Source of the DNA: Acidovorax radicis N35
GTDB lineage: Bacteria > Pseudomonadota > Gammaproteobacteria > Burkholderiales > Burkholderiaceae_C
DNA: 64,000 nucleotides
NCBI RefSeq assembly: GCF_000204195.1
Contig: NZ_AFBG01000016.1
Coordinates: 62,001-126,000 of the forward strand
Reading direction: 5' to 3'
Shown here: positions 17,329 to 61,485 of the stretch, piece by piece
Position numbering within the stretch: position 1 is the first letter of the stretch
How the letters are laid out: the number at the start of each line of letters is the position of its first letter
The notes under the pieces: generated by a model
Told to the model about the DNA's origin: nothing
The model's database searches: none
What the model saw: only the letters and a program-made list of their open reading frames with translations
Translations under genes and position numbers: made by a program

Positions 17329-18343
17329 CAGCGGGCTGCAGCAATTGCACCGCCATGTCGCGCGTGAGCGCCGCCACATCCTCGCGCTGCTTGAACAAAA
17401 TGCCTGCGGTGTCGGACACCACTTCCGGGTCCACCACGATGGTGTCGAGCGCCACCAGCGCCTTGGCCCACTCCACGCTCTCCGCGATGCCCGGCGCGCG
17501 CTGGAAGGCGTTGGCAAATGGCTGGCTGCGCAAACGGCCCACAAAATCCGCCACCTGGATGGCCAAGGCGGCGCTGGCATCCGGCACCTGCGCACGCACG
17601 ATGGCCAGTTCGCGCGCGCGCTCGGGGTAGTCCAGCCAGTGGTACAGGCAGCGGCGCTTGACGGCGTCGTGCAGGTCGCGCGTGCGGTTGCTGGTGAGGA
17701 TGGTGACCGGCGTGGCCGTGGCGCGCACGGTGCCGATCTCGGGGATGCTCACCTGGTACTCGCCCAGGTATTCGAGCAAAAACGCCTCGAAGGGCTCGTC
17801 GGCGCGGTCCACTTCGTCGATGAGCAGCACGGCGCCAGGCGCCGGGGCCTGCAGCGCCTGCAGCAGGGGGCGGCGGATGAGGTAGCGGTCTTGGTAGACC
17901 TCTGCTTCGATATCACGCGCGGCAGTGGCCGTGGGCGCGACCGAGCCGCCGCCGGGCCGCCCCAAGGCGGCGAGCGCCCCCTCGGGGGGCAGCGACGACA
18001 CGTCAGTGCGGAGCGTGGGGGTCAACATTTCAGCCGCCCGCATGTGCAACAGCTGGGCAGCGTAGTTCCATTCGTACAGTGCCTCGCGCTGCTCCAGCCC
18101 GTCGTAACACTGCAGGCGGATCAGGCTGCGTTCCAGCACCTTGGAGAGCGCCTGGGCCAGCGCCGTCTTGCCCACGCCGGGCTCGCCCTCCAGCAGCAGG
18201 GGGCGCTGCAGCTTGAGCGCCAGGAACACGGCCGTGGCCAGCCGCCGGTCGGCAAAGTAGCCCACGCCCTGCAAGGCCAACACCAGGGCGTCGATGGAGG
18301 ACAGCGCGGGGGCGGTCATGGGCGCAGGAGGGGAAACGTTCAT
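17315..18343 (-). CDS. coxD: MoxR-family AAA+ ATPase (CoxD-like) carrying a repeat-encoded insertion
   Basis: 342 residues. Walker A GEPGVGKT (residues 53-60), Walker B VLLIDEVDR, sensor ILTSNRTRDLHDAVKRRCLYHW are all intact, so the ATPase should be functional. Partner of CoxE in maturation of the molybdenum hydroxylase. Odd feature: residues about 107-134 (ending ALAALGRPGGGS) are encoded by a copy of an intergenic repeat (17953-18024) whose other copy lies outside genes at 37929-37998; relatives normally pass directly from MRAAE to the EVYQDRYLIRRP region. The start codon directly follows a family-1 repeat and has no clear Shine-Dalgarno sequence. Confidence 0.9.
   Translation of the reverse strand: MNVSPPAPMTAPALSSIDALVLALQGVGYFADRRLATAVFLALKLQRPLLLEGEPGVGKTALAQALSKVLERSLIRLQCYDGLEQREALYEWNYAAQLLHMRAAEMLTPTLRTDVSSLPPEGALAALGRPGGGSVAPTATAARDIEAEVYQDRYLIRRPLLQALQAPAPGAVLLIDEVDRADEPFEAFLLEYLGEYQVSIPEIGTVRATATPVTILTSNRTRDLHDAVKRRCLYHWLDYPERARELAIVRAQVPDASAALAIQVADFVGRLRSQPFANAFQRAPGIAESVEWAKALVALDTIVVDPEVVSDTAGILFKQREDVAALTRDMAVQLLQPADVDA
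17953..18024. repeat. Family-2 repeat inside the moxR/coxD coding sequence
   Basis: GC-rich element with the core ggggggcagcgacgacacg and the end gagcgtgggggtca, matching 37929-37998. Here it is translated in frame as part of the AAA+ protein without disrupting the reading frame. Confidence 0.8.
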
Positions 18344-18400
18344 TACTATAATTTTTATAGCTGCTAGCGATTTATAGATAAGCGCTAGAGGCCAATTTCA
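18344..18400. repeat. Family-1 palindromic repeat abutting the moxR start
   Basis: On the minus strand it reads tagcgcttatctataaatcgctagcagctat and then an A/T-rich arm that runs straight into the ATG of moxR at 18343. One of eight copies in the window. Confidence 0.8.
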
Positions 18401-18454
18401 TTCATAAATTAACCTTGCATGCCACCCAAGGTGATTGCAACTGGCCTCGCAACC

Positions 18455-23675: not shown

Positions 23676-23721
23676 TCGGCAGCGGGGACGCTGATCGGCG
23701 GTGCACAGCGCAAAATTTAAG

Positions 23722-23778
23722 CCAAATTTACCCCTAGCGCTTGCTAGAAAATCGCAAGTAGCTATTAAATAAATAGCA
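23722..23778. repeat. Family-1 palindromic repeat
   Basis: Contains ccaaatttacccctagcgctt and agtagctattaaataaatagc. It lies between the convergent AcoR-like and ModE-like genes. Its second stem arm is degraded compared with other copies. Confidence 0.65.
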
Positions 23779-23803
23779 AACCAAGTCAGCGAGAGGTCTG
23801 GCG

Positions 23804-37097: not shown

Positions 37098-37925
37098 TTA
37101 CTTGCCCGCGTTCGGGAAAAACAGCTGCTCGCCCCCAATCTTGTAGCCCGCGATAGCCTGCTGGCCGGCGGGCGACACCACCCAGTCCACAAACTTCTGC
37201 GCGTCTTGCGCCTTCACGTGCGGGTGCTTGGCGGGGTTGACGACCATCACGCCATACTGGTTGAAGAGCTTGGTGTCGCCCTCGACCAGGATGGCCAGGT
37301 CGGCGCGGTTCTTGAAATTGAGCCAGGTGCCTCGGTCGGCCAGCACGTAGGCGCCGCTGGATGCCGCGATGTTGAGCGCGGGGCCCATGCCGCAGCCACA
37401 CTCCTTGTAGCCGCTGCCCTTGGCGGCGTCGGCGCCCGCAAGCTTCCAGTAGCGCAGCTCGGCCGCATGGGTGCCGCTTTTGTCGCCGCGCGAGATGAAG
37501 TTGCCGTTGGCAGCGGCCAGTGTCTGCAGGGCCTGCACGATGTCCTTGCCCTTGGCGCTCACCGGGTCGTTCTTGGGGCCCACCAGGATGAAGTCGTTGT
37601 ACATCACGGCATAGCGCTTCACGCCCCAGCCATCCGCCACAAACTTCTCTTCGGCCACCTGGTCGTGCACGAAGAGCACATCCGCATCGCCCCGGCGCGC
37701 CATGTCCAGGGCCTGCCCGGTGCCCAGCGCCACCACCTTGGTGTCGAGCCCGCTGGCCTTCTTGAACTCGGGCAGCAGGTAGCCGAACAGGCCCGATTGT
37801 TCGGTGGACGTGGTGGATGCCATGGTGATGCTCTGTGCGAAGGCAGACCCACTTGCTACAAAAATAATAGCTGCCAGCGCTTTATAAAAAAGCGCTGGGG
37901 CACAAAAAGACTTGAAACTTTTCAT
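37098..37925 (-). CDS. tupA: Tungstate ABC transporter substrate-binding protein with repeat-encoded signal peptide
   Basis: 275 residues. The mature protein starts near QSITMASTTSTEQSGLFGYL, a TupA hallmark, with GTGQALDMARRGDADVLFVHD, DFILVGPKNDP and FISRGDKSGTHAAELRYW. Binds tungstate (or molybdate) in the periplasm for TupBC. Odd: signal-peptide residues about 5-23 (within APALFYKALAAIIFVAS) are encoded by a complete family-1 palindromic repeat (37857-37912). Upstream, a family-2 repeat brings a terminator-like hairpin between tupC and tupA. Confidence 0.92.
   Translation of the reverse strand: MKSFKSFCAPALFYKALAAIIFVASGSAFAQSITMASTTSTEQSGLFGYLLPEFKKASGLDTKVVALGTGQALDMARRGDADVLFVHDQVAEEKFVADGWGVKRYAVMYNDFILVGPKNDPVSAKGKDIVQALQTLAAANGNFISRGDKSGTHAAELRYWKLAGADAAKGSGYKECGCGMGPALNIAASSGAYVLADRGTWLNFKNRADLAILVEGDTKLFNQYGVMVVNPAKHPHVKAQDAQKFVDWVVSPAGQQAIAGYKIGGEQLFFPNAGK
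37857..37912. repeat. Family-1 palindromic repeat inside the tupA signal-peptide coding region
   Basis: Minus-strand text ccagcgcttttttataaagc followed by gctggcagctattatttttg, matching the intergenic copies at 51726 and 55103. Here it is in frame within tupA. Confidence 0.85.
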
Positions 37926-37928
37926 CGC

Positions 37929-37998
37929 GGAGCCGCCCCAAGATGAAAAAGCCCCCCTGGGGGGCAGCGACCACACGAAGTGGGGAGCGTGGGGGTCA
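37929..37998. repeat. Family-2 repeat between tupC and tupA, with terminator-like hairpin
   Basis: Shares the core ggggggcagcga and the end gagcgtgggggtca with 17953-18024. On the minus strand it contains GCCCCCC-A-GGGGGGC followed by TTTTT (37946-37965), an intrinsic-terminator-like structure 21 bp before the tupA ATG. Confidence 0.75.
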
Positions 37999-38005
37999 AT
38001 TCTCG

Positions 38006-38734
38006 TCATACCAGTTCTCCTTTGACAAACAGACGGGCGGCCTCGGGCAAGGGGCCATTGAAAAAATCGTGCACCGGCAGGTCGGCCACCAGGCGACCGT
38101 GTTCCAGGTAGATCACGCGGCTGGCCAGGCGCTTGACCTGGCCCAGGTTGTGGCTGCTGAACACCATGGTCACCGGGTGCGCCGGGCCTGCCGCGCTGTG
38201 GCTGGCGGCAAAGTCGGCCATCAACGCCTCGACCTCGCGCTTGGCATGGGGGTCGAGGCTGGCGGTGGGTTCGTCCAGCAGCAGCACATCGGGCCGCAGC
38301 GCCCAGGCACGGGCCAGCGCCACACGCTGCTGCTGGCCACCCGACAGGGTGCGTGCGTTCTGCGCGGCAATGTCCTGCAGCCCCACACGCTGCAAGGCGG
38401 CAATGGCCTGCAGCCGCGCATCGCGCCACCGCGTGCCACGCAGCCACAGGGCAAGTGCCACGTTGTTCTGCGCACTCGTGCGCAGCATGTGCGGGCGCTG
38501 GAACAGCATGGCCTGGCGGAAGGCCGCGTTGCATTGAAAGCCGCCGCCGCTGGCGTCGGCCAGGCCGTTGAGCACGCGCAGCAGTGTGCTTTTGCCACTG
38601 CCATTGGCGCCCACCAGTGCCACGTGCTCGCCGGGCGCGATGCGCAGCGTGACCTGGTCCAGCGCCTGCACGCGGCCATAGCGCACCGTCACCTGGCGCA
38701 GATCGACCCAGGGGTTTGCCAAAGGCCCGCTCAT
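38006..38734 (-). CDS. tupC: Tungstate ABC transporter ATP-binding protein
   Basis: 242 residues from the ATG at 38734, which overlaps the tupB stop (ATGA). Walker A LVGANGSGKSTLLRVLNGL, signature LSGGQQQRVALARA, Walker B VLLLDEPTASLD, switch FSSHNLGQV. Energises uptake through TupB. Confidence 0.92.
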   Translation of the reverse strand: MSGPLANPWVDLRQVTVRYGRVQALDQVTLRIAPGEHVALVGANGSGKSTLLRVLNGLADASGGGFQCNAAFRQAMLFQRPHMLRTSAQNNVALALWLRGTRWRDARLQAIAALQRVGLQDIAAQNARTLSGGQQQRVALARAWALRPDVLLLDEPTASLDPHAKREVEALMADFAASHSAAGPAHPVTMVFSSHNLGQVKRLASRVIYLEHGRLVADLPVHDFFNGPLPEAARLFVKGELV

Positions 38735-39468
38735 GCCGCCACCCCCACGGGCGTGCTGGACGCAGAGCCATCCACGCGTTCGCGCCAGCGCCGCACCAGC
38801 GCGATCAGCACATTGAGCGCCAGCACCACGGTCAGCAGGATGATGCCCAGCGCCAGCGCCAGGGGCAGGTCGCCCTTGCTGGTCTCCAGCGCGATGGCGG
38901 TGGTCATCACGCGCGTGAAGCCGTCGATGTTGCCGCCCACGATCATCACCGCGCCCACCTCGGAGATCGCGCGGCCAAACGATGCCAGCAGCACCGTGAG
39001 CAAGGCATAGCGTTCGTCCCAGGCCAGCAGCAGGCTGCGCAGCAACGGGCCAGCGCCCATGGAGCGCAGCTGTTCGCCATGCGCGCGTTCGGCGTCTTCC
39101 ACCACCTGGCGCGTGAGCGCCGTGACCACCGGCAAGACCAAGATGGCCTGCGCCAGCACCATGGCCTTGAAACTGAACAACCACCCCAGCGAGCCGAGCG
39201 GCCCGCTGCGCGAGAGCACCAGGTACACCACCAGCCCCACCACCACCGACGGCACCGCCAGCAAAGTGTTGAGCACCGCCAGCGCGGCTCCCCGCCCGGC
39301 AAAGCGGGCGACCCCGAGCCAGGCGCCCAGCACCAGGCCCACACCGCAGGCAATCAGGCAGGCAGTGGCGCTGACAGACAGGGAACGGCCCACGATGGTC
39401 CAGAGGACGGGGTCGGACGAGAGGGTGAGTTGCAGCGCTGTGCTCGCGCTTTCCGAGAGAGTGGACAT
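38731..39468 (-). CDS. tupB: Tungstate ABC transporter permease
   Basis: 245 residues, about six membrane spans, from MSTLSESASTALQLTLSSDP. TupB/YvrB-type features include AVPSVVVGLVVYLVLSRSGP, EQLRSMGAGPLLRSLLLAWDE and FGRAISEVGAVMIVGGNIDG. First gene of the tupB-C-A operon and divergent from the HTH regulator 50 bp away. Confidence 0.92.
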   Translation of the reverse strand: MSTLSESASTALQLTLSSDPVLWTIVGRSLSVSATACLIACGVGLVLGAWLGVARFAGRGAALAVLNTLLAVPSVVVGLVVYLVLSRSGPLGSLGWLFSFKAMVLAQAILVLPVVTALTRQVVEDAERAHGEQLRSMGAGPLLRSLLLAWDERYALLTVLLASFGRAISEVGAVMIVGGNIDGFTRVMTTAIALETSKGDLPLALALGIILLTVVLALNVLIALVRRWRERVDGSASSTPVGVAA

Positions 39469-39518
39469 GGGTTCGGCTATCGTAGGCACCCAAGCAATGT
39501 CCAGCGATATGAACTCCC

Positions 39519-40640
39519 GTGCATAGGGTCCAACTTCACTACACACTCAGCCGCGATGCAGGCAACGCCCTGATCCGCAACCCGCTGCCCGAACTGCTGC
39601 AGGCGGTGGCAGAACAAGGCTCCATCTCGGGTGCTGCACGGGGGCTGGACCTGTCGTACCGCCATGTCTGGGGCGCGCTCAAGCGCTGGGAGGAGCAACT
39701 GGGCGGCGAGCTGATCATCTGGGGCAAGGGCCAGTCGGCCCAGCTCAGCGAGTTCGGAGCGAAGCTGCTGTGGGCCGAGCGCCAGGCCCAGGCGCGGCTG
39801 GCACCACAGATTGCCGCACTGCACGCCGACCTGGAGCGCGCGTTTGCCGTGGCCTTCGACCCCAACGCCCATGTACTCACCATGTACGCCAGCCATGACG
39901 ATGCCCTGGTGGCGTTGCGCACCCATGCCGCCGCACAGGCCGATGCGGGCGCGCTGCACATCGATATCCGCTTCACCGGCAGCGTGGACGCGATCCGCGC
40001 GCTGAACGAGGGCCGATGCACGCTCGCGGGCTTTCACACGGTGGAGCAGCCTGCCGCCGATTCATTGACCGCACGCACCTACAAGCCTCTGCTGCAGCCC
40101 GGGCTGCACAAGATCATCGGCTTTGCCCAGCGCACACAGGGCCTCATCGTGGCACCGGGCAACCCGCTCGGGCTGGGCAGCCTGGCCGACGTGGCGCGCA
40201 CCGGCGCCCGTTTTCTCAACCGGCCGCTGGGCACGGGCACCCGCGTGCTGCTCGACGACCTGCTCGCCCAGGCGGGCCTTTCTGCCTCGGCCATCCAGGG
40301 CTACGCGCTCAACGAACCGTCGCACACCGCCATCGCCCAGGCCGTGGCAGCGGGAGCAGCCGATGTGGGCATGGGCATCGAAGTGGCCGCCCGGGCTCGC
40401 GGGCTGGATTTTGTGCCGCTGGTGCACGAGTGCTACCACCTGGCCTGCCTGAAATCCAGCCTGGACCAGCCCGCCACACTGGCACTGCGCACCTTGCTGC
40501 AGACCCCAGAATGGCTGGCCCAGATGGCCACCCTGCCGGGCTACGCCCCCTGGCACTGCGGCGAGGTGCAGGCCATGAACACGGTGCTGCCGTGGTGGCG
40601 CTTCACACGCCCCAAGCTCGCCCCGCGCGCACGGGCTTGA
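39519..40640 (+). CDS. ModE-type HTH regulator fused to a periplasmic-binding-like domain (tungstate/molybdate sensor)
   Basis: 373 residues. The only available start is the GTG at 39519; an in-frame stop lies just upstream. Residues 1-95 are a ModE-like winged helix (LLQAVAEQGSISGAARGLDLSYRHVWGALKRWEEQLGG). The rest is a substrate-binding-like fold (TMYASHDDALVALR, TQGLIVAPGNPLGLGSLADV, MGIEVAARARGLDFVPLVHE), which probably senses a metal oxyanion or molybdopterin-related ligand in the cytoplasm. Divergent from tupBCA and the evident regulator of it. Half-sites CTATCG and CGATAT flank the 39477-39510 gap. Confidence 0.87.
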   Translation: MHRVQLHYTLSRDAGNALIRNPLPELLQAVAEQGSISGAARGLDLSYRHVWGALKRWEEQLGGELIIWGKGQSAQLSEFGAKLLWAERQAQARLAPQIAALHADLERAFAVAFDPNAHVLTMYASHDDALVALRTHAAAQADAGALHIDIRFTGSVDAIRALNEGRCTLAGFHTVEQPAADSLTARTYKPLLQPGLHKIIGFAQRTQGLIVAPGNPLGLGSLADVARTGARFLNRPLGTGTRVLLDDLLAQAGLSASAIQGYALNEPSHTAIAQAVAAGAADVGMGIEVAARARGLDFVPLVHECYHLACLKSSLDQPATLALRTLLQTPEWLAQMATLPGYAPWHCGEVQAMNTVLPWWRFTRPKLAPRARA

Positions 40641-44206: not shown

Positions 44207-45289
44207 TCAGAGCTTGACGGTCTGCATGTAGCTGTCGAAGCGGCCTTCGGCCACGCGGAACCATGCCACCTGGTCGCGCTGGAAGTTGCGGAAGTCCGCA
44301 TAGATCTTCTTCCACTCCGGGCTCTTGGCATCGTTCTCGGCATACACCTCTTGGGAAGCCTTGAACGAGGCGTCCAGCACATCCTTGGTGAAGGGCAGGA
44401 GCTTGATCTTGGCGCCAATCAGTTGCTTCAAGGCGACGGGGTTGCGGGCATCGTACTTGGCCAGCATGTCCACGGCGGCGTGCGACGAAGCGGCCTGGAT
44501 GATGGCCTTGTTTTCGGGGGACAGTGCGTCAAATGCCTTCTGGTTGATGAAGAAGTCCACCTCGGGACCACCTTCCCACCAGCCGGGGTAGTAGTAGTGA
44601 GGCGCCACCTTGTTGAAGCCCAGCTTCTGGTCGTCATAAGGGCCGACCCATTCCGCCGCATCGATGGTGCCCTTTTCCAGAGCTTGGTAAATTTCGCCAC
44701 CGGGCAGGCTCTGGGGCACCACGCCCATCTTCTGCATCACTTCACCCACCAGGCCGCCGCCCAGGCGCATCTTCAGGCCCTTAAGGTCAGCGACCGACTT
44801 GATTTCCTTGCGGTACCAGCCACCCATCTGCGTGCCGGTGTTGCCACCTGCGAAGCTCAGCATGCCGTAGCCTGCATAGAACTCGTCCATGAGCTTGCGG
44901 CCGTTGCCGTGCATCATCCACGCGTTCATCTGGCGCGAGTTCATGCCGAACGGAATGGCCGAGCCCAGCGCGAAGGCGGGGTTCTTGCCGTAGAAATAGT
45001 ACGGCACGGTGTGGCACATTTCCACCGAGCCCTGCTGCACGCCGTCAGCCACACCCATGGCAGGCATCAGTTCGCCGCCAGCGTGCACCGAAATTTCGAA
45101 CTTGCCGCCCGACATGGCTTTCACCGCATTGGCAAACACCTCGGCACCGCCGTAGATGGTGTCAAGGGGCTTGGGGAAGCTCGATGCAAGGCGCCAGCGC
45201 ACAGCAGCCTGTGCGTGAACAGCAGGCGCCACCCCGGCGGCCAGCACGCCAGCAATGCCCGCATGCTTGATGATTGAACGACGATCCAT
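44207..45289 (-). CDS. TRAP solute-binding protein, TakP-like (2-oxo acid receptor), copy 1
   Basis: 360 residues. Tat-like signal MDRRSIIKHAGIAGVLAAG ending at AVHAQA. Strong resemblance to Rhodobacter TakP: WRLASSFPKPLDTIYGGAEV, EMCHTVPYYFYGKNPAFAL, GGNTGTQMGGWYRKEI, DAAEWVGPYDDQKLGFNKVA and YYYPGWWEGGPEVDFF. TakP binds pyruvate and related 2-oxo acids with sodium. SD GGAGAT upstream of the ATG at 45289. Monocistronic with its own terminator. Confidence 0.9.
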   Translation of the reverse strand: MDRRSIIKHAGIAGVLAAGVAPAVHAQAAVRWRLASSFPKPLDTIYGGAEVFANAVKAMSGGKFEISVHAGGELMPAMGVADGVQQGSVEMCHTVPYYFYGKNPAFALGSAIPFGMNSRQMNAWMMHGNGRKLMDEFYAGYGMLSFAGGNTGTQMGGWYRKEIKSVADLKGLKMRLGGGLVGEVMQKMGVVPQSLPGGEIYQALEKGTIDAAEWVGPYDDQKLGFNKVAPHYYYPGWWEGGPEVDFFINQKAFDALSPENKAIIQAASSHAAVDMLAKYDARNPVALKQLIGAKIKLLPFTKDVLDASFKASQEVYAENDAKSPEWKKIYADFRNFQRDQVAWFRVAEGRFDSYMQTVKL

Positions 45290-45401
45290 GTGGTTATCTC
45301 CGAAAACTCGATTGCACAACTTGGCGCGCAGGGCGGTAACCCTTGGCCCAAGAACTTTCTTACCGGAATCGATTGTAGGAACATGCCCTGTGCAGGATTT
45401 G

Positions 45402-45413
45402 CGGGTTTTCCCG
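45402..45413. promoter_or_regulatory. CGGGTTTTCCCG motif upstream of TakP-like copy 1
   Basis: Perfect CGGG/CCCG dyad around TTTT, 113-124 bp before the ATG at 45289. Member of the TRAP-associated motif set. Confidence 0.45.
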
Positions 45414-45611
45414 TGAAATCCCGGCCATCGCCGAAGGGCTTCAGGGTTCTGCAAGCATCGGCCCCGATGAGTCAACAAAGGCTGTTGAGTGCACGGCGCG
45501 CAAGCGCCACCGCAGACCGGCGAAACTGGCACACCCCATGCAAAAGCAGCCGAGCAAGGGCCGCCCCGCCGCATTGGCTGCACGCCCCTTCCCGAATAGC
45601 GCAGCAATTCG

Positions 45612-45650
45612 AGAGAAGGGGGAAGGCACGAAGCGCATCAGGGGGTGCCC
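45612..45650. repeat. Family-3 intergenic repeat, partial copy c
   Basis: Only the end gaaggcacgaagcgcatcag plus gggg matches copies a and b. Like them it abuts the 3' end of a minus-strand gene (stop at 45651). Confidence 0.55.
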
Positions 45651-46733
45651 CTATATCTTCTGCGCCGACATGAAGGTGTCGTATCGCGCTTCGGCAAAAC
45701 GAAACCACAGGATCTGGTCGCGCTGAAAGTTGCGCATGTCTCCGTAGATCCTTTTCCACTCGGGGCTTTTGGAGTCGTTGTGCGCGAAGACTTCCATCGA
45801 TGCCTTGAATGCGGCGTCCATGACACTTTGCGAGAACGGCAGCACCTTGGTCTTGGCCGCCACCAGTTGCTTGAGGGCGGTGGGGTTCAGGGCATCGTAC
45901 TTGGCCAGCATGTCCGTGTGTGCGATGGCAGCGGCCGCCTCGACAATGAGCTTGTTGTCGGCCGACAGGCTGTCAAATGCCTTGCGATGGATGAAGAAGT
46001 CGATCTCCGGCCCCCCCTCCCACCAGCCGGGGTAGTAGTAGTAAGGGGCCACCTTGTTGAAACCGAGCTTCTGGTCGTCGTAGGGCCCCACCCATTCGGC
46101 CGCATCGATCGTGCCTTTTTGCAGGGCCTGGTAAATCTCGCCCCCCGGAATGCTTTGCGGAATGGCACCGAGCCGGGACATCACATCGCCCACCAGACCG
46201 CCGCCCAGGCGCATCTTCATGCCCTTGAAGTCGCTGGGGCTCTTGATCTCCCGCAGGTACCAGCCCCCCATCTGTGTGCCCGTGTTGCCGCCTGCGAAGC
46301 TGACCATGTTGAAGCCCGCATAAAACTCGTCCATGAGCTTGCGGCCATTGCCATGGAGCATCCAGGCGCTCATCTGGCGGGCGTTGAAGCCAAATGGAAT
46401 GGCCGAGCCCAGCGCAAAGGCCGGGCTCTTGCCATAGAAGTAGTACGGCACGGTGTGGCACATCTCGACCGCACCGCCCTGCACAGCATCCACCACACCA
46501 AACGCCGGCATCAACTCGCCCCCGGCGTGAACGGAGATTTCGAAGCGGCCGTTTGTCATGATTTTCACGGCCCTGGCAAACACCTCGGCGGCGCCATAGA
46601 TGGTGTCCAGCGACTTGGGGAAGCTGGAAGCGAGCCGCCACCGGATGGATGCCTGCGCAAACACCGCCGGCGCCGCACCGGTGGCCAGCACCCCTGCGAT
46701 ACCTGCGTGTCTGATGAGAGAACGGCGATCCAT
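45651..46733 (-). CDS. TRAP solute-binding protein, TakP-like, copy 2 (tandem paralogue)
   Basis: 360 residues, the same length as copy 1 and clearly a tandem duplicate: MDRRSLIRHAGIAGVLATG signal, WRLASSFPKSLDTIYGAAEV, YYFYGKSPAFALGSAIPFG, DDQKLGFNKVAPYYYYPGWW. Differences cluster in the signal and in loops (QGGAVEMCHT, LREIKSPSDFKGMKMRLGG). Both copies keep the WVGPYDD ligand/sodium region, so both probably bind 2-oxo acids, perhaps with different preference. No cognate permease on this strand; dctQM at 40974-43130 is the nearest partner. Confidence 0.9.
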   Translation of the reverse strand: MDRRSLIRHAGIAGVLATGAAPAVFAQASIRWRLASSFPKSLDTIYGAAEVFARAVKIMTNGRFEISVHAGGELMPAFGVVDAVQGGAVEMCHTVPYYFYGKSPAFALGSAIPFGFNARQMSAWMLHGNGRKLMDEFYAGFNMVSFAGGNTGTQMGGWYLREIKSPSDFKGMKMRLGGGLVGDVMSRLGAIPQSIPGGEIYQALQKGTIDAAEWVGPYDDQKLGFNKVAPYYYYPGWWEGGPEIDFFIHRKAFDSLSADNKLIVEAAAAIAHTDMLAKYDALNPTALKQLVAAKTKVLPFSQSVMDAAFKASMEVFAHNDSKSPEWKRIYGDMRNFQRDQILWFRFAEARYDTFMSAQKI

Positions 46734-48945: not shown

Positions 48946-49001
48946 TAGCTATTCTTTTTATAGCTGCCATCGCTTTACAGTCAAGCGCTAGCGGCCAATT
49001 T
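48946..49001. repeat. Family-1 palindromic repeat abutting the dxs start
   Basis: Minus-strand text ggccgctagcgcttgactgt and gcgatggcagctataaaaag, ending at the dxs ATG (48945). It fills the gap between ispA and dxs. Confidence 0.8.
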
Positions 49002-49060
49002 TGCATTGATTTCACTGCATGGGGCATGAACAGGGTGCAGCACGGATCATCGGGCCTGGC

Positions 49061-51670: not shown

Positions 51671-51725
51671 ATACGGCGGCAAAACCCCGCCAATCTGCAG
51701 GCCCGCCGTGGTCTGCTCTCATTAC

Positions 51726-51770
51726 AATAGCTGCCAGTGCTTAAAAAAATAAGCGCTGGCAGCTATTTTC
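51726..51770. repeat. Family-1 palindromic repeat, near-perfect copy
   Basis: aatagctgccagtgcttaaa followed by aaaataagcgctggcagctatttt: almost perfect inverted repeat of about 20 bp arms. Lies in the leader of the EamA gene. Confidence 0.85.
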
Positions 51771-51811
51771 ATTTCTGCGCCCCACGGCGCGCTTCAAGAG
51801 ATCACAACCCG

Positions 51812-55102: not shown

Positions 55103-55160
55103 GAAAATCGCCTCTAGCGCTTTATTCACAAGCGCTAACAGCTATATTTTTTATAGCAAA
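55103..55160. repeat. Family-1 palindromic repeat after flhC
   Basis: gcctctagcgctttattcac then aagcgctaacagctatattt: clear stem ctagcgctt/aagcgctag-like plus the agctat arm. Confidence 0.82.
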
Positions 55161-58200: not shown

Positions 58201-58405
58201 GGGGCCGGGTGGGCGGTCAGGCTGTCGCCCAGTGGGCGGCTGTGTTCTACCGTGATGCTGCGGTTGCTGGTCCATTTCACCAAGGCAACCAATGCAAGGC
58301 CGGGCAACGCTGGGGACGCTGGCGTGTGACTTGTAATCTGGCCCCGGCAAAGACGAGGACCAAGGCCAGCAGGGTGTGGAGCCTGCTGGCCTTGCCGGGT
58401 TTGGA

Positions 58406-58466
58406 GCCAAATTGGCCGCTAGCGCTTGATAGACAGGCGCTACCAGCTATCAATTTAGGAGTTTTC
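58406..58466. repeat. Family-1 palindromic repeat
   Basis: ccaaattggccgctagcgct ... caggcgctaccagctatcaa, followed by a second tagctgcc. Carries the ccaaattggcc flank also seen at 23722 and 48946. Confidence 0.8.
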
Positions 58467-58510
58467 AATAGCTGCCAACCAAACCCCGGTGGGGAGTGTT
58501 GCGCGGTTGA

Positions 58511-60541: not shown

Positions 60542-61423
60542 CTACTCAGAACCAGCCAATATCGCAGCCCGATGTGCCGACACGATACGGCTGACACGCG
60601 ACACGGACAAGCCCAATTGGCGCGCGATCTCTGACAGGCTGATTTGTGACGCGTAGTGCGCCTGCACCAAGGCCCGATCCCGCGTGGGGCACTCGGCAAG
60701 CCAGTCTTGCAGGCTCTTGGGGCTGGCACGCTGTTGTTTGGGGATTTCTTTGGCGCTCACGGCGCGGTCACTGGCCAGCGCCTGCATGCGCAGCACGAAG
60801 TCTTCATTGCCCAGATACATTTGCTGGCGCAAGCCCTGGGCCCAAAGTTGAACCCCCTGCCCCGCTTGCACCAACGCGACATAAGCCTGGGCCGCCTGAG
60901 CCCTTGCCTGTGCATCCTGTGCATCGCGCCCCAGCAGATAGCCCCACACGGCCTGGGCATCCAGCCAATCAGGCGCAGGGCTCAGACCCGCCAGCGCGTG
61001 GTAACTGCACCACGGCCACTGGGCAGGATGCTCTACCAGGTGGGCGCGCACCCTGTTCAGCTCCACATAGCGGCACACCTCCAGAAGGTAGGCATCCCGG
61101 TCCACCAGGATGGCTTTGAACCGCCCTTGAAAAAGATGCCCCACCTTGCCGTGGCGCCGATTAAAGCGCTGGGTATAGACACCATTGATATGGCGCATCA
61201 AAAGCGACAAGTTCGGTTGCCGGGTGTGCAGCACAAAGTGGTAGTGGTTGTCCATAAAGCACCAAGCCACTGCACATGCATCAAAGCGATGCAGCGCTTG
61301 GTCCAAAACGCTCAACAGGTCTTCACGGTCAACGTCACCCACAAAGATGGGTTCACGCCGGTCTCCCCGCGAAGTCACGTGATACACCGCACCTGGAAAC
61401 TCGATTCGCAGGGGTCTTGCCAT
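60542..61423 (-). CDS. REP-associated tyrosine transposase (Y1 HUH) with C-terminal helix-turn-helix
   Basis: 293 residues from MARPLRIEFPGAVYHVTSRG. HUH motif NHYHFVLH (H60, H62), catalytic tyrosine Y83 in HINGVYTQRFNRRHGKVGHL, LFQGRFKAILVDRDAYLLEV. The C-terminus has an HTH, SLSEIARQLGLSVSRVSRIV, that may bind the repeat ends. The gene is intact. RAYTs mobilise or process REP-type palindromes, and this genome region is rich in palindromic repeats. No strong Shine-Dalgarno sequence. Confidence 0.92.
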   Translation of the reverse strand: MARPLRIEFPGAVYHVTSRGDRREPIFVGDVDREDLLSVLDQALHRFDACAVAWCFMDNHYHFVLHTRQPNLSLLMRHINGVYTQRFNRRHGKVGHLFQGRFKAILVDRDAYLLEVCRYVELNRVRAHLVEHPAQWPWCSYHALAGLSPAPDWLDAQAVWGYLLGRDAQDAQARAQAAQAYVALVQAGQGVQLWAQGLRQQMYLGNEDFVLRMQALASDRAVSAKEIPKQQRASPKSLQDWLAECPTRDRALVQAHYASQISLSEIARQLGLSVSRVSRIVSAHRAAILAGSE

Positions 61424-61485
61424 GTTCAAGCCTTTGGAAACTCACTGATCAATCTGATGGTGCGAGAGAGTTTCTATGGGTTGAT

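Follow-up and report, generated by a model that had tools for sequence, protein, structure and literature searches.

In a 64,000-nucleotide stretch of the Acidovorax radicis N35 genome (contig NZ_AFBG01000016.1; hereafter the window), the gene tupA is predicted by homology to encode a tungstate-binding protein, and the DNA for its predicted Sec export signal contains one member of a palindromic repeat family, about 60 bp in unit length, that is dispersed through the genome (Table 1). The ATG of tupA is read from the sequence at 37925-37923 on the minus strand. The product matches the NCBIfam model TupA (NF041772; E 6e-70, 235.6 bits, under the curated cut-off of 400 bits), Pfam PBP_like_2 (E 2.8e-38) and the tungstate-binding protein of PDB 3lr1 (E 1e-72). 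We use the name TupA because of the E-value of the NCBIfam match, the neighbouring permease and ATPase genes and the match to PDB 3lr1. Alignments with solved TupA-like structures begin at TupA residue 30-31; the signal reaches a hydropathy peak of 2.35, and small residues precede Gln31.

Table 1. Features of the tupA locus and copies of the palindromic repeat in the window
Feature	Coordinates	Strand	Basis or remark
tupA	37098..37925	-	275 codons and stop; predicted tungstate-binding protein, by homology
Predicted Sec signal	37836..37925	-	codons 1-30, MKSFKSFCAPALFYKALAAIIFVASGSAFA, then Gln31; translation, hydropathy, solved relatives
Palindromic repeat copy (about 60 bp) inside tupA	37852..37911	-	model positions 3-62; residues about 5-25
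A/T-rich arm of the tupA copy	37855..37871	-	TAGC..GCTA ends; encodes hydrophobic core AIIFVA; read from sequence
Hairpin in the tupA copy	37874..37898	-	arms CCAGCGCTTT (37874-37883) and AAAGCGCTGG (37889-37898)
Second, GC-rich repeat	37926..38000	-	directly upstream of tupA start; member of direct-repeat family D8
ABC transporter ATPase gene	38006..38734	-	upstream of tupA; open frame; best NCBIfam models are ABC transporter ATPases
TupB-like tungstate-type permease gene	38731..39546	-	NCBIfam ABC_perm1, 225.1 bits, above cut-off
Dispersed repeat copy	18343..18402	-	52.8 bits
Dispersed repeat copy	23721..23779	+	35.1 bits
Dispersed repeat copy	48946..49002	-	45.2 bits
Dispersed repeat copy	51713..51773	-	40.5 bits
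Dispersed repeat copy	55103..55159	+	47.1 bits
Dispersed repeat copy	58405..58463	+	47.1 bits

The repeat was modelled with a 63-position profile of own-genome copies from which tupA was left out (176 matches, including duplicates from overlapping loci). Run against the 64-kb window with nhmmer, this profile picks up the tupA copy (37901-37853, minus strand; 50.5 bits, E 7.5e-15). The coordinates of that copy in Table 1 are this match extended to the model register. The search confirms the original prediction, made from the letters of the window, that a repeat copy lies within the tupA signal. The frame and extent proposed there (residues about 5-23) are essentially those given by the model register, and the A/T-rich arm indeed encodes the hydrophobic core. 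The profile search finds seven copies in the window, tupA and six more, and the copies proposed at 51726 and 55103 are real. BLAST of the 60-nt tupA segment against the genome gives 44 matches (40 of 105 candidates scored), the best non-self match being 85% identical (E 4.7e-11). Allowing up to one mismatch, the genome has the hairpin core AGCGCTTN7AAGCGC 422 times in forward and 417 times in reverse orientation, whereas the control, the same pattern reversed, gives 8 and 4; many sites are counted on both strands because the pattern is nearly palindromic. The stem core is near invariant among 34 aligned copies, and RNA covariation is uninformative because the stem hardly varies. No Rfam family matches within the window at gathering thresholds.

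Translation of the repeat consensus gives about NWPLALIHKALAAIIFVA in the sense frame, with a basic residue followed by a hydrophobic stretch, and about ATKIIAASALWISASGQF in one of the antisense frames, with small residues at the end of a hydrophobic stretch; the 11-residue hydropathy peaks are 2.05 and 2.00, respectively. For a sample of 20 of the 51 distinct tupA segments, codons were redrawn with the amino acids fixed. With the codon usage of the gene, the observed repeat score was reached in 0 of 5000 redraws at all 20 loci; with uniform usage it was reached in 0 of 5000 at 19 loci and in 1 of 5000 at one. Across 30 loci of the genus, the repeat codons have a GC content at third positions (GC3) of 0.39, and those of the mature part of the gene one of 0.88. 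Where codons specify the same residue, third-position conservation in these loci is 0.81 in the repeat and 0.76 elsewhere; the five codons from the repeat to the cleavage site are less conserved, at 0.41. In the Rhodoferax clade the values for the repeat and elsewhere are 0.77 and 0.67. The comparison of these sequences supports the view that the segment of TupA acting as predicted export signal is repeat DNA read in frame. A translation start beyond the repeat is ruled out from the sequence: the next in-frame ATG lies within the mature domain, and the start cannot fall 3' of the repeat because the predicted signal would be lost.

The tupA repeat extends well beyond this genome. In our genus sample, 45 of 47 genomes have a tupA match, and 30 loci were taken; in a sample of named genomes, several of which are also in the genus sample, 80 loci were kept among the matches listed. 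Sense repeat matches within the signal are found at E<=0.05 in 30/30 genus loci and 38/80 of the named loci listed, and at E<=1e-4 in 28/30 and 28/80. The carriers include Acidovorax, Paracidovorax, Simplicispira, Diaphorobacter, Rhodoferax, Curvibacter, Ottowia and Polaromonas, and no tupA repeat was found in the loci of Limnohabitans, Hylemonella, Ramlibacter, Caenimonas and Azoarcus or of four GC-rich Acidovorax. Of 68 matches, 64 have model position 60 at 15 nt from the mature start; in three the distance is 18 nt, and in one, the Polaromonas locus, it is 3 nt. Where orthologues from other genera have a similar signal, their DNA matches the repeat as well, and the orthologue comparison found no repeat-free version of the same signal. 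The claim that a repeat has become an export signal therefore stands as far as in-frame repeat DNA is concerned, but not as something particular to this genome, since the feature is common to genera; a recent insertion here is ruled out by the single register that these genera share. Among the 81 TupA proteins placed on a quick tree, 39 have the repeat and 42 do not. The signal core of the 42 is GC-rich (0.6 or more) in 28 and not in 14, some of which resemble eroded copies (e.g., loci L094 and L109). Because related bacteria carry the repeat too, the capture in tupA would have taken place long ago, and the repeat likely entered the tupA signal once, in an ancestor of these Comamonadaceae.

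The repeat-coded predicted signal of tupA was anticipated correctly, but tupA is only one of several genes with an in-frame repeat. Among 122 distinct own-genome copies examined, a set biased to open frames, 27 rows were flagged; 15 copies were judged coding and in frame, and 12 lie just 5' of likely starts or are ambiguous. Seven of the 15 fall in predicted signal peptides: those of TupA, a TctC-type receptor, a TPM-domain protein (ATG within the repeat), DsbD and a cupredoxin (both in the antisense frame), LolA (antisense frame; a weak copy of 29 bits) and a DUF2147 protein (ATG within the hairpin loop). The remaining copies are in membrane segments of CobD and CobS, at the N-terminus of CbiX, and internal in DapF, RlmD, RsmB, EarP and an FAD-oxidase/iron-sulphur protein. 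At E<=1e-5, DapF has the repeat in 14/18 genus loci and in 0/12 from other families of the order, and RlmD in 15/18 and 0/11; counting ungapped matches only, the LolA signal matches at E<=1e-3 in 8/18 genus relatives. The genus RlmD is at least 8 residues longer at the repeat site than 10 of the 11 outgroup sequences, and in two genomes (G016 and G008) the extra residues are retained with no repeat match, as expected from an eroded insertion. When 28 copies were picked regardless of frame (7 in the window and 21 in contig order), 3 were coding by homology (tupA, TPM and RsmB). A gene caller based on codon scores predicted genes at none of the 28; it was not used, as it prefers starts past the AT-rich repeat, truncated the tupA signal and missed RsmB. 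We note a further in-frame copy in an MgsA/RarA-type AAA+ ATPase gene 3' of lolA (L259:2761-2819) in several Acidovorax relatives.

Presence of the repeat in tupA goes with its abundance in the genome. A two-mismatch pattern scan of 31 named genomes gave a high control background and was replaced by R1, a sequence model of Acidovorax copies that scores up to 150 candidates per genome, so that 150 is a lower bound. R1 was run on 30 genomes, 27 of them with a tupA locus in our samples. The repeat is in tupA in 15 of the 18 genomes with at least 26 R1 matches (G076, G077 and G079 lack it at E<=0.05) and in one, G073, of the 9 with 10 matches or fewer (Fisher p 0.0006, kinship not removed). Left out of this count were G008 (no tupA found) and G016 and G020 (tupA locus not taken), all repeat-poor with 4, 6 and 7 matches. 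The GC-rich Acidovorax G008, G016, G020 and G063 have 4-7 R1 matches versus at least 150 in other Acidovorax; the repeat is almost lost from them.

The repeat also has lineage forms. Copies of one Rhodoferax genome are a variant with GCCCTCGTnCAATATGCGCAAGC in place of the Acidovorax GCGCTTATCCATnAAGCGCTAGC, and leave-one-out scoring separates the Acidovorax set (102/102, 14 of them in-gene) from the Rhodoferax set (29/29, chosen by similarity to Rhodoferax tupA). The tupA repeat of the Rhodoferax clade (Rhodoferax and the nearest metagenome-assembled genomes) fits the Rhodoferax form in 7/7 loci, one of them (L108) by 1.7 bits only; among the other distinct tupA (n=44), the Acidovorax form fits better in 36, and the remaining 8 lean Rhodoferax. 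The dapF copy fits the Rhodoferax form in 4/5 Rhodoferax genomes, the fifth, G073, being repeat-poor with no dapF match. Because both lineage sets were partly chosen by tupA similarity, which invites circularity, we checked with independently found copies, using 88 Acidovorax copies without the in-gene ones and test copies found by other means. The best R1 copy of each genome leans as its tupA does in 14/15 genomes (Fisher p 0.002, kinship not removed), and incidental copies in the flanks of the Rhodoferax loci lean Rhodoferax in 6/6 cases, a seventh match being itself a picked copy.

In sum, the tupA segment matches dispersed repeats at the DNA level, in frame and in constant register across genera; its third positions are AT-rich, its form follows lineage in Rhodoferax, and other genes carry in-frame copies. 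We consider it likely, with good if not full confidence, that the repeat copy in tupA signal codons ~5-25 was recruited once in an ancestor and has been kept matched to each lineage by recombination. Given a start codon and a suitable cleavage site, a repeat inserted close to the beginning of a gene could serve as a Sec signal with little else required, and copies near gene starts may be tolerated or favoured, since they would be near-ready Sec signals. Dispersed copies could then occasionally convert, and so rewrite, a coding copy, and selection would retain those rewritten versions that still export. Such concerted evolution is suggested because register and junctions are constant while form follows lineage; coding copies probably evolve in concert with dispersed ones by recombination. 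That coding and non-coding palindromes co-evolve to the point where the repeat keeps rewriting the TupA export signal and the DapF segment in each lineage is a tentative proposal, to which we give a little less than even weight.

Several observations weigh against this interpretation. Under a harder control, shuffling of synonymous codons within the signal, the repeat score is attained in 0 to 36 of 2000 shuffles, and over all 39 repeat-bearing loci third-position conservation is 0.69 both in the repeat and elsewhere. G073 is the sole disagreement in the 15-genome comparison of best copies. One Acidovorax clade (NB1, GW101-3H11 and HMWF029; loci L047, L053, L055 and L057) has a Rhodoferax-leaning tupA, and in three of its genomes the copies in dapF and rlmD and an intergenic one lean Acidovorax. 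A finer lineage match was sought within the Acidovorax-type genera and none was found: the tupA repeats of Diaphorobacter, Simplicispira and Ottowia fit the copies of the window genome no worse than their own (small sets of 20, 4 and 10). Finally, presence and absence of the repeat need 11 changes on the quick tree, which has many weak branches; an old origin with losses is therefore likely, with repeated gain also possible.

The persistence of AT-rich third positions against the genome bias, together with the near-invariant stem core, would also be expected if selection acted on the DNA itself, the repeat being a protein target or an RNA hairpin whose partner changed in the Rhodoferax lineage, with the copies following. 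The location of core motif copies near gene ends, often between convergent genes, as given in PMC5217627, fits this account as well. The partner is hypothetical, and both Limnohabitans and the GC-rich Acidovorax manage without the repeat; we regard selection of this kind as unlikely. Separate entry of Rhodoferax-type and Acidovorax-type repeats into the tupA signal would explain the lineage match without recombination and would accord with the clear distinctness of the two forms (102/102 and 29/29 on leave-one-out) and with the 11 presence changes on the tree. Against such independent insertions, the spacing to the start codon is identical in 9/9 loci compared, all 7 Rhodoferax-clade loci have the 15-nt spacing to the mature start seen in nearly all Acidovorax, and dapF splits likewise at one shared site, so that we think this explanation rather improbable, a shade more so than DNA-level selection. 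A reverse origin, in which the repeat family derives from a segment of a signal-peptide or membrane gene, was raised by Delihas for enterobacterial repeats (PMC2759123), and two open frames of the present repeat do resemble signal peptides. Only 3 of the 28 frame-blind copies are coding by homology, and a palindrome would be unexpected in a signal gene; we hold this origin to be very improbable. Signal peptides often use non-optimal codons, but protein-level convergence, by which a hydrophobic core in rare AT-rich codons mimics the repeat, is excluded for practical purposes by the codon redraws (0/5000 in nearly all loci) and by the repeat-less tupA of Limnohabitans and GC-rich Acidovorax, in which the same codons have a GC3 of 0.68-0.80.

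As for the neighbours of tupA, no NCBIfam model passes its cut-off on the ATPase gene, and the permease gene scores 173.3 bits against the TupB model, under the 320-bit cut-off. The GC-rich repeat upstream of tupA lies between the ATPase stop and the tupA ATG and also occurs at 17950-17988; its peptide is present 5' of tupA in 9/30 genus loci. Where this repeat is absent, the stop of the upstream gene and the ATG of tupA overlap in many loci, and the tupA start has therefore apparently been displaced. Elsewhere in the window, a Y1_Tnp (IS200-like) transposase gene at 60542-61429 on the minus strand, which we take to be of the REP-associated tyrosine transposase (RAYT) kind (REP, repetitive extragenic palindrome), has inverted repeats nearby at 58505, 60500 and 61486 that differ from the ~60-bp repeat. 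Two blocks 1444 bases apart at 44225-46541 are 72-81% alike, which suggests a tandem gene duplication.

If the capture proposed here for tupA is correct, an export signal would be obtainable in one step, through a spread repeat entering a gene start. If coding copies are in addition rewritten by dispersed ones, non-coding repeats would have a long-term influence on protein sequence. Caution is accordingly in order with certain signal peptides and inserts in proteins of Comamonadaceae, which may not reflect ordinary protein evolution.

Comparison with known systems may begin with the Rickettsia palindromic elements (RPE), reportedly described by Ogata in 2000 and 2002. In PMC2229807 and PMC10969869 they are in-frame palindromes in genes, and they share with the present family the occurrence of in-frame copies within unrelated conserved genes (here 15/122). 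By the description given there, RPE measure 105-146 bp, whereas the present repeat has about 60 bp (63-position model); it is also found in free-living betaproteobacteria, and many of its coding copies form predicted signal peptides. A repeat-made signal peptide has been described for the YAPL/RU-2 repeat in Yersinia YPO1552 (Delihas 2007, PMC2759123, PMC2229807), and here too repeat codons form part of a predicted N-terminal signal (TupA residues about 5-25). In contrast to YPO1552, a single 144-aa putative exported protein of Y. pestis and Y. pseudotuberculosis, the present case involves a conserved transporter subunit across genera and six more genes with predicted repeat signals. GTAG/CGTC REP elements are short high-copy palindromes, some of them inside open reading frames of several genomes (PMC3733652). 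The present repeat differs in having no conserved GTAG beside the stem, its unit ending in GTAGC or ATAGC, variable and distant from the stem, and no dedicated transposase was identified, the genome not having been searched for RAYTs; the main text of PMC3733652, in the portion available, makes no mention of Acidovorax, Delftia, Polaromonas, Comamonas or Burkholderiales.

The closest precedent lies in PMC5217627, which describes a spaced motif of Acidovorax ebreus TPSY, GCTTAT(N)5AAGCG, as potentially novel. Of its 114 copies, 107 are intergenic and 5 fall within genes, and copies lie close to gene ends, often between convergent genes. The motif is identical to the core of the present repeat (GCTTAT CCATA AAGCG; consensus GCGCTTATCCATnAAGCGC). 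The same source gives Rhodoferax ferrireducens T118 as the genome with the most motif pairs, 140. It also lists a motif of Polaromonas, ATAGCT(N)22CAAAAG, with 125 copies, 18 of them in genes; this motif may be related to the present repeat. The full 60-bp unit, its coding copies, the signal peptides, the other genera and the lineage forms are undescribed in that account, so far as its available text goes. Searches of the literature, within the text accessible, found no report of a coding role for this repeat, of a conserved signal peptide made from it or of coding copies that follow lineage forms. The repeat core is thus already in print, and both in-frame palindromes and one repeat-made signal are known; on these partly available sources, the use of the present repeat as coding sequence and as signal appears to be new.
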